The notes under the pieces were generated by a model that saw only the letters and a list, made by a program, of their open reading frames with translations, had not been told where the DNA came from and searched no databases. Below, in pieces: positions 13,497 through 56,539 of a stretch of DNA of 64,000 bases (position 1 is its first letter; the number at the start of each line of letters is the position of its first letter). The stretch lies in the NCBI RefSeq assembly GCF_001750145.1, contig NZ_CP015732.1, positions 2,728,001 to 2,792,000 of the forward strand, in the 5' to 3' direction. Source of the DNA: Arthrobacter sp. U41 (lineage in GTDB: Bacteria; Actinomycetota; Actinomycetes; Actinomycetales; Micrococcaceae). The position numbers and the translations under genes are program-made.

Positions 13497-13512
13497 TCGA
13501 ATATATGTTCGA
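13497..13512. promoter_or_regulatory. LexA (SOS) box upstream of DUF222-like microgene
   Basis: TCGAATATATGTTCGA is a near-perfect palindrome matching the actinobacterial SOS box (TCGAAC-N4-GTTCGA) with one mismatch. The candidate -10 TAGCAT begins 1 nt downstream at 13514, so bound LexA would cover the promoter. Confidence 0.85.
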
Positions 13513-23315: not shown

Positions 23316-23331
23316 TCGAATATCTGTTCGG
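23316..23331. promoter_or_regulatory. LexA (SOS) box of recA
   Basis: TCGAATATCTGTTCGG matches TCGAAC-N4-GTTCGA with two differences. It lies about 170 bp before recA, with a -10-like TATGCT at 23339-23344 just downstream, implying a long 5' leader of about 150 nt. Confidence 0.85.
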
Positions 23332-34573: not shown

Positions 34574-34589
34574 TCGAATATGTGTTCTA
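34574..34589. promoter_or_regulatory. LexA (SOS) box, LysM-gene side
   Basis: TCGAATATGTGTTCTA, with two differences from the consensus, lies between the lexA promoter and the divergent LysM gene and could control either. Confidence 0.8.
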
Positions 34590-51331: not shown

Positions 51332-52531
51332 CTAGAACAGGGTGGGCTGCGCCGCCTCGGTTCCGGCCCGCGCGCGGGCCGGAGGTGCCGCCGCCCCGGG
51401 GATGCTGCCGGCCGGGTACTGCGCCTCCTCATCCCGGGGATCATTGCTGCCGGGATCGTCGTTGAGATCGCGGTGGCTGAAACCCTGCGATCCCAGGAAA
51501 CCATGCCGGCCCTTGAAATACCGGATGCGGCCCGACAGCCAGGCCCGGTATTCCTTGGAGGCATAGGAGCCGGTTCCGTAGAGCCGGCGGTACCTGCCGG
51601 CGAGCTGGGGATGTTCCCTGGCGATCCACTGCATAAACCACTCCCGGGTTCCGGGCTTGAGGTAGAGGGCTCCTGCGGTGACGCCGGTGGCGCCCGCCGC
51701 AGCCAGCGAGCCGAACAGCGAATCCAGTGCCTCGTCGCTGTCCGAGAGCCACGGCAGGATGGGCATGGCCATCACCCCGCAGGGCAGCCCCGCCTCCCGG
51801 AGCCGCGTGATCAGTTTCAGGCGGGCCCGGGGACCGGGTGTCCCCGGCTCCACCGCTTCGGAGAGCCGCTCGTCCGTCATCGCCAGAGAGATGCCAACCC
51901 CCACGGGAACCTGGGCCGCGGCATGCTTCAGGAGCGGGATGTCCCGGGCCAGCAGGGTGCCCTTGGTCAGGATCGACAGGGGAGTGCCGGAATCGGCCAG
52001 CGCCCCGATGATGCCCGGCATCAGCTGGTAGCGGCCCTCGGCCCGCTGGTACGGATCGGTGTTGGTGCCCAGGGCCACATGCTGCCGCCCCCAGGAGGGC
52101 CTGGCCAGTTCCCGGCGCAGGACCTCAGCGGCGTTGATCTTGACCACCACCTGGCTGTCGAAGTCCAGCCCGGCATCGAAGTCGAGGTAGGTGTGGCTCT
52201 TCCGGGCGAAACAGTAGACACAGGCGTGGCTGCAGCCGCGGTAGGGGTTGATGGTCCACTCAAACGGCATCCGCGAACCGGCGGCCACTTTGTTGAGCAC
52301 CGATTTGGCGGTGACCTCATGGAAAGTGACCCCGGCGAACTCGGGGGTGGTCACGGAACGCACCAGCCCGATCAGGGGCAGCAGGGGATCGGTGGTCGGG
52401 GCGGCCGGGGACGCGCTGCCTGTGCTGCCGCCGGCAGGCGTGGTGACACGCGGTGCGCCGAGTCCCGGGGCCTGGTCGGGGATGACCGTGTCCGCGGGCG
52501 CCGGTTTCAGTGCTTGTGCGTCCCATCTCAT
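51332..52531 (-). CDS. Rv2578c-type radical SAM protein with C-terminal clamp-binding-like tail
   Basis: A 399-residue radical SAM protein. The cluster motif is CSHACVYC (Cys100, Cys104, Cys107) after WTINPYRG, the pattern of the SplB/Rv2578c group of DNA-photolesion-lyase-like proteins. It ends exactly in QPTLF, matching the bacterial sliding-clamp motif (Q-x-x-L-F). Upstream lies an IS element that splits its promoter and a LexA box. The substrate is unknown; a DNA lesion is the natural hypothesis. Confidence 0.85.
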   Translation of the reverse strand: MRWDAQALKPAPADTVIPDQAPGLGAPRVTTPAGGSTGSASPAAPTTDPLLPLIGLVRSVTTPEFAGVTFHEVTAKSVLNKVAAGSRMPFEWTINPYRGCSHACVYCFARKSHTYLDFDAGLDFDSQVVVKINAAEVLRRELARPSWGRQHVALGTNTDPYQRAEGRYQLMPGIIGALADSGTPLSILTKGTLLARDIPLLKHAAAQVPVGVGISLAMTDERLSEAVEPGTPGPRARLKLITRLREAGLPCGVMAMPILPWLSDSDEALDSLFGSLAAAGATGVTAGALYLKPGTREWFMQWIAREHPQLAGRYRRLYGTGSYASKEYRAWLSGRIRYFKGRHGFLGSQGFSHRDLNDDPGSNDPRDEEAQYPAGSIPGAAAPPARARAGTEAAQPTLF

Positions 52532-52539
52532 GGCTCTAT

Positions 52540-52551
52540 TCGAATGTATGT
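52540..52551. promoter_or_regulatory. Left part of a LexA box split by the IS element
   Basis: TCGAATGTATGT ends at the IS. The bases after the right target duplicate (TCTA at 55528-55531) complete TCGAAT-GTAT-GTTCTA once the element and one duplicate are removed. Confidence 0.75.
52544..52551. repeat. Target site duplication, left copy
   Basis: ATGTATGT directly precedes the left terminal inverted repeat; an identical copy follows the right one. Confidence 0.9.
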
Positions 52552-52575
52552 ATTGGGTATCTGCTTAGCTGAAGT
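52552..52575. repeat. Terminal inverted repeat, left
   Basis: 24-bp repeat starting ATTGGGTATCTGC; it overlaps the first base of the transposase stop codon. Confidence 0.9.
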
Positions 52576-53534
52576 CAGTCCGCAGATGCGGAACTGACCA
52601 GATTCTTCAGAGGCACGGGGCCGGTGTTCATGCACTGTTGGAGCAGCCGGTGGAACAACAGCCCGCGGCTGGCTGACGTCCTGCGGTTGAAGCGGAACGT
52701 GAACTCGTCCAGGTAGTAGGCCAGCTGTTCCCGGGAGATGCCCTGGTGCAGGGTGCCGTCAATCCAGCGCTTGAGCTGGGAGGCCGCCATATGCACTGCA
52801 GGCATGTTGACGTGCGCCGGGACGTCCGAACCGAGCTGGGTGAAGTATTCGTGCTTGTAGCCAAGCTTGGCGAACCGCCTCAGCTGCCTCGCTCCGTCCG
52901 TGCGGATAGTGGAACCCGGGGCGACGACACGTTGGCCGAATTTCACCAATGCGAGCCTCCGGTCGGCCGGCCCGGGCTCGAGGCGGATGCGCCCGATCCG
53001 GTTATGGTCCAGATGCTCCGCGGCGATCAGGACGGAGATCTTGTCAGAGCCAAGACCGGGCTTGCCGCGGGCCAAGCCCCCGATGAAGCTCTCGTCGACT
53101 TCGACCGTCCCGGAGAGTACTTCCCGGTCGGGCCGGACCATGGCCCGGCGGAACTTATGCATCCAGGCCCACGCCGTTTCGTAGGAGCCCAATCCCAGAA
53201 CCCGCTGCAGGCCGAGGGCGGACACGCCGTTCTTCTGCGCGGTGACAAACCAAACCGCGGCAAACCATGTGCGCAGCGGAGTGCGGGTGCGGTCAAATAT
53301 GGTCCCGGCCGTCACCGACGTCCGACGTGAACATACCCGGCACATCCAGAGTCCGGCACCTGTACGCCAGTAGTCGCCGCCACCACATCTGGGGCAGATG
53401 AATCCATCCGGCCAACGCAGCTTGGCCAGGTACTCAAGACACGCATCATCGGTGCTGAACCAGTCCTGAAACTGCCCGAATGTCCTGGGATAGTCCACGC
53501 CTGCGCGCGGCATCTGCGGCGGTAAATCGGCCAT
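52575..53534 (-). CDS. IS1595 family transposase
   Basis: A 319-residue transposase. The N-terminal zinc ribbon is CPRCGGGDYW with CRVC; the ISXO2-like catalytic domain starts at GTVEVDESFIGG and includes IRTDGARQL, an HVNMPAVH segment and the C-terminal YYLDEFTFRFNRR. It appears intact, so it may act on the outer ends. Confidence 0.92.
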   Translation of the reverse strand: MADLPPQMPRAGVDYPRTFGQFQDWFSTDDACLEYLAKLRWPDGFICPRCGGGDYWRTGAGLWMCRVCSRRTSVTAGTIFDRTRTPLRTWFAAVWFVTAQKNGVSALGLQRVLGLGSYETAWAWMHKFRRAMVRPDREVLSGTVEVDESFIGGLARGKPGLGSDKISVLIAAEHLDHNRIGRIRLEPGPADRRLALVKFGQRVVAPGSTIRTDGARQLRRFAKLGYKHEYFTQLGSDVPAHVNMPAVHMAASQLKRWIDGTLHQGISREQLAYYLDEFTFRFNRRTSASRGLLFHRLLQQCMNTGPVPLKNLVSSASAD

Positions 53535-53544
53535 ACGCCAGTCT

Positions 53545-53559
53545 ACTTCAGCTAAGCAG
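53545..53559. repeat. Truncated inner inverted repeat
   Basis: ACTTCAGCTAAGCAG matches the inner 15 bp of the terminal repeat, but the outermost 9 bp (ATACCCAAT) are missing, so this copy alone should not be mobile. Confidence 0.85.
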
Positions 53560-53863
53560 CGACGAAGTAGCTCGTGAAACCGCCGTCGCCGCTCGCTACA
53601 CCCGAGATGGCTTCATTAATGTCGTCCAGCGGCCAGCTCTTCGGTTGGAGCACCGAGATATCGATCGTCCCGCTCCCCAACATGGCCGCGAGTTCCATTG
53701 CCTCGGCGGACGTGAACCAGACCGAGCCGAGGAGTTCCATCTGCTCGTTCATCCACCACTTCACATCGACGCTGAGGTCACCTGCCGTTCCGCCGATATT
53801 GATGATTCGGCCGCCTCGTCTCACGCCGTGCATTGCATCCTTGAGAAGAGGTTGGCGGGCTCC
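53552..53863 (-). pseudogene. C-terminal fragment of a zinc-type alcohol dehydrogenase
   Basis: Minus-strand reading gives PLLKDAMHGVRRGGRIINIGG and later DDINEAISGVASGDGGF, the Rossmann and C-terminal parts of a medium-chain dehydrogenase. The N-terminal zinc domain is absent. The stop codon comes from the adjoining IS sequence, so both ends are broken. The upper limit is approximate. Confidence 0.72.
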
Positions 53864-53871
53864 TCCGCAGC

Positions 53872-54084
53872 AAGCTCTTTCCCAATGGTGAGGCGAGAAT
53901 CAGCGCCGTCGATCTCGGCGGTGTTGTGCTCGACCTGACCTACGGTGGCATAGCGGTCTTCCTCAACGTCAACACCGCGGACAGATGGTGCGGCAAGTCC
54001 TCACCGCTTTCCGCAGTTCGGTCCGAGTGGCACACGCAGACTGACTTTCACCTTTTGAGGCACGCAGTCGGATCTATCGAGTAG
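53872..54084 (+). pseudogene. Unassigned ORF remnant in the transposon cargo
   Basis: An open stretch without a start codon reads KLFPNGEARISAVDLGGVVLDLTYGG and continues to a TAG at 54082. The segment looks protein-like and faintly recalls proline-racemase-type enzymes, but the match is too weak to name. Confidence 0.35.
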
Positions 54085-54209
54085 CGGCGTCAACGTCATC
54101 TGTGATCCGATGACCGACAACAGTTGCAATGTCACGGGAGCAGCAATGTCACGGGAGCATCGGCCAACACAGTCGGCCGGCCGATGCTGACGGTTTCGTT
54201 GTTCGGGGA

Positions 54210-54584
54210 CTAGGCAGGCTTGGCGTAGGTGGCCGCACTCATGATTTCATAGCCCACGAATGCCTCATCGCCTTCGACCCAGGCATCATGGCCAGCGGGA
54301 ATTGTATAGGCGTCGCCGACGCTAATTGTGGCGCGCGTTCCGTCCTCCATCTCCACTGTTAACGTTCCGGCGGTGCAGAACCCCAGATGGTTATTCTGGC
54401 AACTGTCGGTGTGGACCACGGTCTTGACGGTCTCGGACCACCGCCAGCCAGGCTCAAAAGTGAACCTGCCCAAGGTGGTATCACCGAGGGTGACCACGTC
54501 AACCTCGGTCTTGGGTGGTCGGCGCTTTTCATCGGGTTCGTTGAATGACTTAAATTCAAGGGCTTTGACAGTTACTGCGGGCAT
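54210..54584 (-). CDS. Cupin domain protein
   Basis: A 124-residue single-domain cupin. The barrel motifs are HTDSCQNNHLGFCTAGTLTVE (metal His region) and DAYTIPAGHDAWVEGDE. It is the only complete gene in the transposon cargo apart from the transposase. Cupins with this layout are often sensors or minor enzymes beside catabolic genes; role unknown. Confidence 0.8.
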   Translation of the reverse strand: MPAVTVKALEFKSFNEPDEKRRPPKTEVDVVTLGDTTLGRFTFEPGWRWSETVKTVVHTDSCQNNHLGFCTAGTLTVEMEDGTRATISVGDAYTIPAGHDAWVEGDEAFVGYEIMSAATYAKPA

Positions 54585-54846
54585 TGTGCCCTCCTCAACA
54601 GGGAGTGATTACAACTGTTCATCCGGAAGCGCAATGAGATGCTCCGGGAAAGAGGGTTCGGCAGACACGGGCTGATGTCCGTTCAGCGCGCCTGCCAAAC
54701 GCCTGCGCGCCCAACTCTATCAGCGTGCTCTCAGCGGCAGGCCGTGTCAATATGCACGGCCTCTCGTTGGCCGCAACCTCAGACCCAGCGTCGATGCGTT
54801 GATTAAAGTCTGCGGCTGGGCCTGTTTTCTGGCAGCCGCAAGCGGG

Positions 54847-55047
54847 TCACTTAGAGCGGACCTTTGGAGCGAATGCTGGCCGGTTGGTTGTCTGATGCTC
54901 TGGCCACCCGAGAAGGGAACTCGGGTTAGTTGTCATCAGGCGGCATAGAAGATCGTCACCTGCCGCTGTCCGGACCCATGCCAGGATTTCAGCGAATGTA
55001 TTTTCTTCGTGTCCGGTGAATGGCCAGTCGCTGCCGAACAGGAGCCG
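54847..55047 (-). pseudogene. C-terminal fragment of an amidohydrolase
   Basis: Minus-strand reading from 55047 gives RLLFGSDWPFTGHEENTFAE and ends at a TGA (54847-54849). GSDWP with a hydrophobic strand before it is the hallmark of the TIM-barrel amidohydrolase_2 family. All upstream domains are missing; the break at about 55047 joins an MFS fragment. Confidence 0.7.
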
Positions 55048-55320
55048 ACAAAGCCGAAGCCGTCCTGTCGGAGATCGAGACCCAGGTGATCGCTGAAAAG
55101 GGCCCGCTGCCTGCCCCCGCCGAGCCGGTCATCGTCCCGAAGCAGACCAAGGCACCACTCAAGCTCCTGCTCCAGAAAAAGTACCTCGGCCCCACGATCC
55201 TCCTCACAGTCCTCTGGGTGACGCAGACCGTTGGCTTCTTCGGGTACTCCAGCTGGGCACCGACGCCGCTGGCCAAAGAAGGCTTCAGCGTAGAGAACTC
55301 GATCTTCTGCGTAGCACTTA
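55048..55320 (+). pseudogene. Middle fragment of an MFS transporter
   Basis: Residues AEAVLSEIETQVIAEKGPL are followed by a helix LGPTILLTVLWVTQTVGFFG and YSSWAPTPLAKEGFS, the central loop and helix 7 of a sugar- or acid-type MFS transporter. The frame is broken at about 55047 on the left and by IS sequence at 55321 on the right. Confidence 0.7.
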
Positions 55321-55321
55321 C

Positions 55322-55485
55322 TAGTCGCCGCCACCACATCTGGGGCAGATGAATCCATCCGGCCAACGCAGCTTGGCCAGGTACTTAAGACACGCATCAT
55401 CGGTGCTGAACCAGTCCTGAAACTGCCCGAAGTTCTTGGGGTAGTTCACGCCTGCGCGCGGCATCTGCGGCGGCAAATCGGCCAT
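55322..55485 (-). pseudogene. N-terminal remnant of a second IS1595 transposase
   Basis: About 55 residues (MADLPPQMPRAGVNYPKNFG to CPRCGGGD) match the start of the full transposase at 53534 with several differences at both DNA and protein level, so this is an older, separate copy rather than a fresh duplicate. Confidence 0.88.
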
Positions 55486-55495
55486 ACGCCAGTCT

Positions 55496-55519
55496 ACTTC
55501 AGCTAAGCAGATACCCAAT
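55496..55519. repeat. Terminal inverted repeat, right
   Basis: Perfect 24-bp reverse complement of the left end (ends GCAGATACCCAAT). Confidence 0.9.
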
Positions 55520-55527
55520 ATGTATGT
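55520..55527. repeat. Target site duplication, right copy
   Basis: ATGTATGT, identical to 52544-52551. Confidence 0.9.
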
Positions 55528-55536
55528 TCTAGTTTA

Positions 55537-55542
55537 AGTCAA
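55537..55542 (-). promoter_or_regulatory. Displaced -35 box of the radical SAM gene
   Basis: Minus-strand TTGACT. With the element and one duplicate removed it lies 17 bp from TCGAAT (52540-52545), a plausible -10 placed 8 nt before the radical SAM ATG. The insertion moved it 3 kb away. Confidence 0.6.
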
Positions 55543-55567
55543 GGACCCGGACGGCGGTGCGGACGCG

Positions 55568-56539
55568 TCACGGACAGCAGGACGGTCGTGGGGCCGAAGG
55601 ATGTCCCGGAGGCACACCGCGCTCAGGGTGCCTTGCTCCGTCCACATCGACGTGTTGTTGCGGTGCCCCGCTGTTGCCTGCGCTGCAGCCGCCGGTGCCC
55701 AGCCAAACCGAAGCGGCCATGAGGCCCAGCACGTCGGCGAAGCCGAGGATGGCGGCCCAGGGCAGTTCGATGTCTCCTGCGTTGAGGTTGTTGAAGAACG
55801 AACCTAAGGGAGTGAGTAAAGGCCACAGCACCAGGAAGCTGCGGGTCAAAGCGAACGCGACCGCATAGATGACCCCGAGCCCAAAGAGGAAGACCATGCC
55901 TTCGCCGCTCATCCCGTAGCCGACGTGGTACGCGGCGTACAGGGCTGCAGCGATTGCAATGCCGGGGGCCCGCCCGAAACTGGCGCTGAGGCGGGTCTGG
56001 ATGAAACCTCGGAAGAACACGGTCTCAAATGCGCCCACCGTCAAAGACATCACCAGCAAAGGCACCCAGCCAACCGGTTCGGGAAGGGGGTACCCGAAGA
56101 GCGTAATGGCGAACTGAAGGGACGCCAGGATCAATCCCAGGGCTACCGCCGGTTTCCAGTTGCCGAGCCACAGTCCCAGGTCGGACAGCGGCCGCCCCCG
56201 GCTGACGGTATAGAACACAGGACCCGCCACCCCCAGGACCAGCCCTGCACCAAAGCACAGGAACAGGCCCAGCACGTTCGTGACAGTGAAGACGGTGAAG
56301 GCCACGCGGAACAGCACGACGACCGCGATGTAGAGGGCCGCCACCACGGCGAGATCCAATTTGTCGACTCCCTGCCGACGCCAGGCCGAGGGGCCGGAAA
56401 CCGCGGCCAGCAGCAACGCCGAAACGGGCACCACCAGACCGTAGAACGTCAGATCAAGGACCGCCAGCAGCAACACGGCGGCGACCAGCCACAAGCACCA
56501 GATCCAGGTGCGCCAGCTCTGAACTGCCTGCACTCTCAT
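55568..56539 (-). CDS. CPBP family membrane protease-like protein
   Basis: A 323-residue protein with about eight membrane helices. GAFETVFFRGFIQTRL corresponds to the EExxxR motif of the CPBP/CAAX protease group, but the second Glu is Thr. A second motif, YAAYHVGYG, keeps its His; the third motif position (PLLTPLGSFFNN) has Thr where His is common. The active site may therefore be altered. The C-terminal 40 residues are Pro/Ser-rich. Confidence 0.78.
   Translation of the reverse strand: MRVQAVQSWRTWIWCLWLVAAVLLLAVLDLTFYGLVVPVSALLLAAVSGPSAWRRQGVDKLDLAVVAALYIAVVVLFRVAFTVFTVTNVLGLFLCFGAGLVLGVAGPVFYTVSRGRPLSDLGLWLGNWKPAVALGLILASLQFAITLFGYPLPEPVGWVPLLVMSLTVGAFETVFFRGFIQTRLSASFGRAPGIAIAAALYAAYHVGYGMSGEGMVFLFGLGVIYAVAFALTRSFLVLWPLLTPLGSFFNNLNAGDIELPWAAILGFADVLGLMAASVWLGTGGCSAGNSGAPQQHVDVDGARHPERGVPPGHPSAPRPSCCP

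Follow-up and report, generated by a model that had tools for sequence, protein, structure and literature searches.

An IS1595-family unit lies between a radical SAM gene and its upstream sequences

We analysed a 64,000-nucleotide stretch of the Arthrobacter sp. U41 genome (contig NZ_CP015732.1, positions 2,728,001 to 2,792,000), here called the window, in which a mobile unit carrying a transposase of the IS1595 family of insertion sequences (ISs) lies upstream of a radical SAM gene of the Rv2578c family. The unit occupies positions 52552-55519 and is bounded on both sides by ATGTATGT, an 8-bp target duplication that can be read directly from the sequence; 8-bp duplications are typical of the IS1595 family. 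The unit very probably belongs to an IS1595-family clade whose insertion is directed to LexA operators, and here it has split the LexA box and promoter of the radical SAM gene. The features of the site are listed below in window positions, with the evidence in brackets.

51332..52531, minus strand: radical SAM gene, Rv2578c family, 399 amino acids, frame intact (NF038135, 505 bits against a cut-off of 430; PF04055)
52538..52543, minus strand: -10-like hexamer TCGAAT, 6 nt before the ATG, remaining beside the gene (sequence, orthologues)
52540..52551, no strand: gene-proximal part of the LexA box, TCGA plus the left 8-bp duplicate (sequence, orthologues, clade ends)
52544..52551, no strand: left target-site duplicate ATGTATGT, the central 8 bp of the 16-bp box (sequence)
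52552..55519, no strand: whole mobile unit, 2968 bp (one full-length copy in the genome)
55520..55527, no strand: right target-site duplicate ATGTATGT (sequence)
55520..55531, no strand: gene-distal part of the LexA box, 8 bp plus TCTA, cut off from the gene (sequence, orthologues)
55537..55542, minus strand: -35-like hexamer TTGACT, now too distant from the -10 (sequence; TTGAC at this spacing in 80/80 orthologues)

When the flanks are rejoined they read TCGAATGTATGTTCTA, which differs at 2 of 16 bases from the box at 34574, TCGAATATGTGTTCTA, adjoining lexA (TIGR00498). The rejoined box matches TCGAAC-N4-GTTCGA at 10 of 12 positions, and the empty site, read on the strand of the gene, is TTGACT-N17-TCGAAT-N6-ATG. 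The initial annotation had described an IS1595-type element with an 8-bp duplicate, an excised site nearly identical to the lexA-side box and an insertion that splits both box and promoter. We confirmed the coordinates, the two octamer copies, the 24/24 match of the inverted repeats and the family (NF033547, 179 bits against a cut-off of 75), and found that TTGACT and TCGAAT now lie at opposite ends of the element. The annotated 17-bp distance between these hexamers also held, while the placing of TCGAAT 8 nt before the ATG did not, the actual distance being 6 nt. The pattern TCGAAT-N4-GTTCTA occurred in 0 of 100 shuffles of the window, and its sole contiguous match in the real window is the lexA-side box, the split box not being contiguous. 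A further box at 23316 is followed by a RecA-like open reading frame (ORF) called by eye. Separately, a strong LexA-like box, TCGAATATATGTTCGA, with 11/12 matches, lies at window positions 13497-13512, and an identical 16-mer is found elsewhere in the genome (C1:1694238).

The operator and promoter are intact in orthologues

The initial annotation had made the split operator depend on related empty sites carrying the second half-site, and they carry it. We used as orthologues the best 80 of 338 related loci, titled Arthrobacter, Pseudarthrobacter or Micrococcaceae; three loci in which the match starts inside the gene were inspected further upstream. The box T[AC]GAA-N6-TTCGA was uninterrupted in 80/80 of the orthologues examined, and so was the promoter, TTGAC-N18-TCGAAT with the LexA box inside. 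TAGAA replaces TCGAA in five of them, as it does in the window. The gap between TCGAAT and ATG was 6 bases in 31 loci and 7 in 49, a spacing that suggests a leaderless transcript.

The empty site also fits the TCGAAC-N4-GTTCGA boxes of Mycobacterium and Streptomyces, as do most of the complete targets described below; LexA binding has been shown in those species (PMC9380542, PMC4181829), and in the window the operator is predicted from its sequence. The first paper gives the Streptomyces venezuelae motif as tCGAAC-N4-GNNCGa, and its LexA regulon table includes a radical SAM gene with a 19.97-fold RNA-seq induction by mitomycin C and a ChIP-seq value (PMC9380542); the analogy with the window gene is that both are radical SAM genes. 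The refined LexA motif of M. tuberculosis is MKWMTCGAAMRYWTGTTCGA, and 13E12-family HNH genes of that species are discussed as LexA-controlled (PMC4181829). We found no paper treating Rv2578c together with LexA in the open-access literature searched.

The same operator was hit in another family. In a genome of the same order (G1103), a 62%-identical element lies in TCGA-AGATGTGT-TCGA (hyphens beside an octamer mark its borders), directly before an Rv2578c-type gene that scores 424.5 bits, just under the 430 cut-off. Its flanks join as TTGCAC-N17-TCGACT, 6 nt before a GTG start, so that the promoter is split at the same point as in the window. The transposase is directed away from the gene in G1103 and toward it in the window; this opposite orientation argues for two independent events on the same operator.

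Actinobacterial insertions share one register

We then collected related insertions. A search of the family with the IS matched 45/395 genomes, a search with its inverted repeat matched 15, and 6 matched when the 15 genomes of one genus were searched again; the transposase matched 18/396 genomes of the order and 23/396 of the phylum. Scanning all collected loci gave 66 distinct ends, from which 11 array-internal ends were set aside to leave 55 (at least one of these also abuts an IS end and was scored as a miss). Of the 55 ends, 31 had T[AC]GA at -12 to -9, immediately beyond the 8-bp duplication; leaving out the two ends of the window element makes this 29/53. When the count was repeated at 36 other shifts it came to 0-3, with a mean of 0.56. 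Base counts over the ends gave the consensus TCGAACATATGT, half a LexA box plus its centre, and the most constant bases were G at -10 (51 ends) and T at -1 (47 ends).

In sixteen targets, 14 of elements and 2 of arrays, both ends were available and had the same octamer; these complete targets include the window. We excluded from the set the arrays or damaged ends of G026, G037 and G1127, as well as the non-box site G006, whose ends were scored as misses among the 55. The complete targets averaged 9.25/12 matches to TCGAAC-N4-GTTCGA; all 16-mers of the same loci averaged 3.0/12, and the largest of 20,000 simulated means was 4.6. Examples are TCGA-ACACATGT-TCGA, TCGA-ACGTTTGT-TCTA, TCGA-ACTGAGTT-TCGA and TCGA-ACGAATGT-TCGA, and TAGA-ACACACGT-TCGA on plasmid pSA01 of Sinomonas atrocyanea. 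In independent insertions the duplicated 8 bp are the centre of a LexA-like box, as expected of the proposed LexA-operator-targeting clade.

Several other arrangements were seen during this survey. Tandem IS arrays with spacers of exactly 8 bp were found at L185, L190, L193, L197 and L205, and several array linkers (ACACATGT, ACACATAT and ATATATGT) resemble LexA-box centres; in the G162 array the linker is ACACATGT as against an outer duplication of ACTGAGTT. This suggests that dimers carry with them 8 bp of a former site. A 39.6-kb unit with the inverted repeats of this IS, about 98-99% identical between copies, was present in two genera (L343-L346; G336, G176) at two targets with their own exact duplications, TCGA-ATCTGTGT-ACTA and TTGA-TCATTTGT-TCTG. 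One large ORF in it is heavy-metal P-type ATPase-like by eye, and at its ends the DNA search found only transposase remnants. In G104 (L184, L187 with L306) two elements of 4670 and 4671 bp with similar ends, each with its own 8-bp duplication, sit on poor LexA-like sites (7/12 and 6/12).

ISCsp2-type elements insert in CTGT-N8-ACAG

CTGT-N8-ACAG is the Escherichia coli-type LexA box. ISCsp2-type elements, whose transposase is about 51% identical, were found in proteobacterial plasmids and viral contigs, and CTGT stood just outside the 8 bp in 13/15 distinct ends. The raw list gave 12/19; setting aside five ends with another inverted repeat gave 12/14, and one end was added. The five came from L253 (four ends), which falls outside the CTGT group in the tree described below, and L257 (one end), which was not placed. 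The targets include TACTGT-ACAAATGC-ACAGTA at L211 and CTGT-ATGGATAT-ACAG at L251. On plasmid pDCB3 the two ends read TACTGT-GCATCCAT and, in mirror, TACTGT-ATGGATGC; the first octamer contains the start codon annotated for umuD, at 4 nt from the element. Four loci (L211, L212, L213 and L218) share one flank, apparently a single insertion spread with neighbouring IS91-type elements, and were therefore counted once. ISCsp2 with the same LexA-box flank throughout was observed at these loci on several catabolic plasmids, including a Sphingobium plasmid, beside the IS91-type ISPps1. Searches for the L215 and L251 elements in E. coli genomes found none.

Distant relatives show background only, and the two groups cluster

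Twenty more distant IS1595 elements whose duplications had been identified served as controls; in one of them the two octamers differ at 1 base. Their targets averaged 2.7/12 for the TCGA type and 1.85/8 for the CTGT type (highest 5 in each case), which is background. Alphaproteobacterial LexA operators have the form GTTC-N7-GTTC. We considered that alphaproteobacterial controls hit this sequence, and rejected it: their best scores in joined 40-mers were 4-6/8, no better than other controls, and no control of the 20 fits it above 6/8. The idea that non-targeting relatives live in hosts that lack LexA was likewise rejected for the genomes tested, lexA being above cut-off in 14/14, a set that includes, of the 20 control hosts, only those of L222, L226 and L245. 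One distant element, L235, is inserted in GCTGCTT-N8-AAGCAGC, an almost perfect palindrome that may be a terminator stem, and its octamers differ at one base. Structured targets of other kinds may exist in further IS1595 subgroups.

We built a quick tree of 57 transposases, leaving out rows L264, L235 and L204. In it a single change accounts for the TCGA group (12 rows) and another for the CTGT group (6 rows), with Shimodaira-Hasegawa-like approximate likelihood ratio test (SH-aLRT) support of 99 and 97, respectively. Since the labels were assigned beforehand from the insertion data, the tree tests clustering only. No trusted exact-duplication pair was found around L229-L231, L317-L319, L223-L225, L227 and L228, or around L216, L267, L269, L277, L304, L233 and L236, and these are in neither group. 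L316/L264 (58% identical) carries the half-boxes TCGA-ACTGATGT and ACGTTTGT-TCGA at its ends with unequal octamers, and was not counted.

Nine insertions adjoin SOS-linked gene kinds

Neighbouring genes were compiled for 38 flank sets, representing 36 insertions or fewer, some with one flank only or on short contigs. The likeliest neighbours at nine loci were scanned full-length, and the remaining flank sets were judged by eye only. The full-length scans identified HNH (L186), DUF222 with HNH (L181, L197), DUF222 (L205), radical SAM (L260), SRAP (L249) and a UmuC-type polymerase (L220), and gave nothing for L193 and L185. Further neighbours were SRAP at L210 and Peptidase S24 at L220; the SRAP genes, both beside ISCsp2-type insertions, lie about 96 bp (L210) and about 69 bp (L249) from the insertion. 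Counting the window, nine insertions thus adjoin SOS-linked gene kinds: radical SAM twice, SRAP twice, umuDC, and DUF222 and/or HNH four times.

Architecture of the mobile unit

The mobile unit is composite-like rather than a simple IS, with a full transposase unit on the left, then about 1.8 kb of cargo, most of it broken, and an IS remnant of about 190 bp on the right. Its parts are listed below.

52552..52575, plus strand: left terminal inverted repeat, 24 bp (24/24 match to the right end)
52575..53534, minus strand: IS1595-family transposase, 319 amino acids, transcribed toward the radical SAM gene (NF033547, PF12762, PF12760)
53545..53559, minus strand: inner inverted-repeat remnant ACTTCAGCTAAGCAG (read on the plus strand), outer 9 bp gone (sequence, compared with the right end)
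53552..53833, minus strand: cargo, 3' fragment of a dehydrogenase gene (weak NF041097 match, far below cut-off)
54210..54584, minus strand: cargo, small cupin-like ORF (PF07883, 24 bits, below the 27.2 cut-off)
55020..55352, plus strand: cargo, fragment of an aromatic-acid transporter of the major facilitator superfamily, running into the second IS remnant (partial TIGR00895 match, far below cut-off)
55322..55519, minus strand: remnant of a second, slightly different IS end, oriented as the first (96% identical over 189 bp, 55322-55510)
55496..55519, minus strand: right terminal inverted repeat, 24 bp (24/24 match to the left end)

The transposase also scores 84.5 bits for PF12762 (cut-off 27) and 50.4 for PF12760 (cut-off 25.4). 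The right terminal repeat is supplied by the second-IS remnant, so that, as in a composite transposon, IS copies flank the cargo and the outer ends moved together, the right copy being only the remnant. As the duplicates lie outside the entire unit, movement in a single piece is the simplest account. Close DNA relatives of the element were looked for in plasmids, and the actinobacterial transposases and their repeat in viral contigs; none were found.

Effect on the radical SAM gene

The -35 and -10 hexamers are now separated by the element and one duplicate, and one half-site of the box stands at each element end. With both the half-sites and the hexamer pair pulled apart, the radical SAM gene has most probably lost LexA/SOS control and its own promoter in this strain. 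The loss of SOS control had been proposed as probable by the initial annotation, and the split half-sites and hexamers support it well. An outward promoter inside the element was considered and rejected, as we found no sigma-70-like promoter within 52400-55700. If the gene is still expressed, this would be through transcripts reading on from the co-directional transposase gene, whose stop codon precedes the radical SAM ATG by 43 bp on the same strand. The three terminator-like sites detected in the same interval are all on the plus strand, none being on the minus strand. It is nonetheless rather unlikely that useful expression is kept in this way, a matter of local effect only: the lack of a sigma-70-like promoter in the interval counts against it, and because the gene looks leaderless, an internal start lacking a clear ribosome-binding site would probably be translated poorly.

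How the operator may be recognised

These insertions have a common geometry. With either operator type, the half-sites flank the same 8 bp and G stands at -10. Insertion is symmetrical about the operator dyad with an 8-bp stagger; the duplicated 8 bp are then the centre of the 16-bp box, with one half-site at each element end. In the window the element took the operator overlapping the promoter of the radical SAM gene. Observed are the preference for such sites, the register in which they are hit, the recurrence of both in two phyla that differ in operator sequence, and the splitting of the promoter. As judged from the sequences, the target follows the host's LexA operator type, the actinobacterial clade having TCGA-type targets and the proteobacterial ISCsp2 clade CTGT-type targets.

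We see about an even chance that the transposase recognises a LexA-operator complex rather than reading the operator sequence. In its specific form, which we hold tentatively and at slightly less than even, the transposase would dock on operator-bound LexA, its specificity following the host LexA and its own DNA reading unchanged; within the same tentative claim the host operators would be TCGAAC-N4-GTTCGA in Actinobacteria and CTGT-N8-ACAG in Beta- and Gammaproteobacteria. Docking on DNA-bound LexA would explain at once why the target follows the host operator.

It is quite possible, though somewhat short of an even chance, that the transposase itself recognises a palindrome resembling the host LexA operator, that LexA has no role, and that the two clades adapted separately. 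Weak boxes are still used, the most constant bases are G at -10 (51/55) and T at -1 (47/55), the former shared with the ISCsp2-type ends counted, and arrays show insertion beside a single half-site. The arrays, however, can also be explained by dimers that carry 8 bp of a former site, and intrinsic recognition must account for a match between each of the two clades, at about 51% identity, and the operator of its own host phylum, umuDC and two Rv2578c-type operators being among the sites hit.

LexA boxes would be merely a frequent example if IS1595 elements had a general liking for palindromes rich in AT or for promoters, or if only insertions in dispensable SOS genes survived. Some distant targets do look palindromic, such as that of L235, and SOS genes are mostly dispensable. 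Selection after insertion, however, does not give a single-base register, the 20 distant IS1595 targets stand at background only, and the consensus is specific and not merely AT-rich; we regard both versions as very improbable. The initial annotation had treated the window insertion as one strain-specific accident, but a chance landing without meaning beyond this strain, for which the single copy of the element in this genome could be cited, is hardly credible and was rejected, because a clade of IS1595 elements repeatedly chooses LexA-operator-like sites in the same register in other genomes and the shift and background controls contradict it.

Several results weigh against insertion directed to LexA operators. 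Five of the 16 complete targets score 8/12 or less, two of which (CAGT-ACATAGGA-CCAA and TAGT-ACATAATT-AGCA) reach only 6/12, and 24 of the 55 ends do not have T[AC]GA. In some tandem arrays one flank is an IS end and not a half-site. The ends of an element form a dependent pair, and a single family (Micrococcaceae by named records) supplies most of the actinobacterial data. If the five set-aside ISCsp2-type ends are kept, CTGT is present in 13/20, and most of the 38 flank sets have no recognised SOS gene. The weak targets and the ends without T[AC]GA indicate that the specificity is a strong bias and not absolute. Finally, the quick tree does not resolve how the TCGA and CTGT groups and the nearest non-targeting rows join, so that targeting is either old in this part of the IS1595 family and lost in some members, or was gained twice.

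Known systems and significance

Transposons that choose regulatory sites are known; to our knowledge none is aimed at the operators of one repressor across phyla. The elements resemble the IS1595 family (NF033547) in their transposase with zinc ribbon and DDE domain, 8-bp duplication and inverted repeats with GGGTATC, and the nearest named element, ISCsp2, shares the operator-centred insertion register. In the open-access literature searched, with subscription journals and ISfinder outside the search, the texts available contain no description of LexA-operator targeting by ISCsp2 or the IS1595 family, and no open-access paper was found that combines IS1595, target site and LexA. The paper on strain JS3051, in the part available, names ISCsp2 without discussing its target. 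The nearest parallel is provided by the Mutator-like elements TnGBS, ISLre2 and ISKra4, which insert upstream of sigma-A promoters and so likewise aim transposition at a regulatory feature (PMC3942029). TnGBS differs in that it has a transposase of another superfamily and inserts 15-17 bp upstream of the promoter, not in a repressor operator, and mostly in one orientation (PMC3942029).

If insertion is indeed directed to LexA operators, the SOS regulon would be rewired predictably, each insertion uncoupling a DNA-damage gene from LexA, and the insertion sites would form a natural map of LexA operators in unstudied bacteria. The elements also offer a simple system for testing protein-guided transposition in bacteria. 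Should docking on LexA prove true, they would be the bacterial counterpart to transposons that transcription-factor complexes guide, with a link to the DNA-damage state of their host cell.

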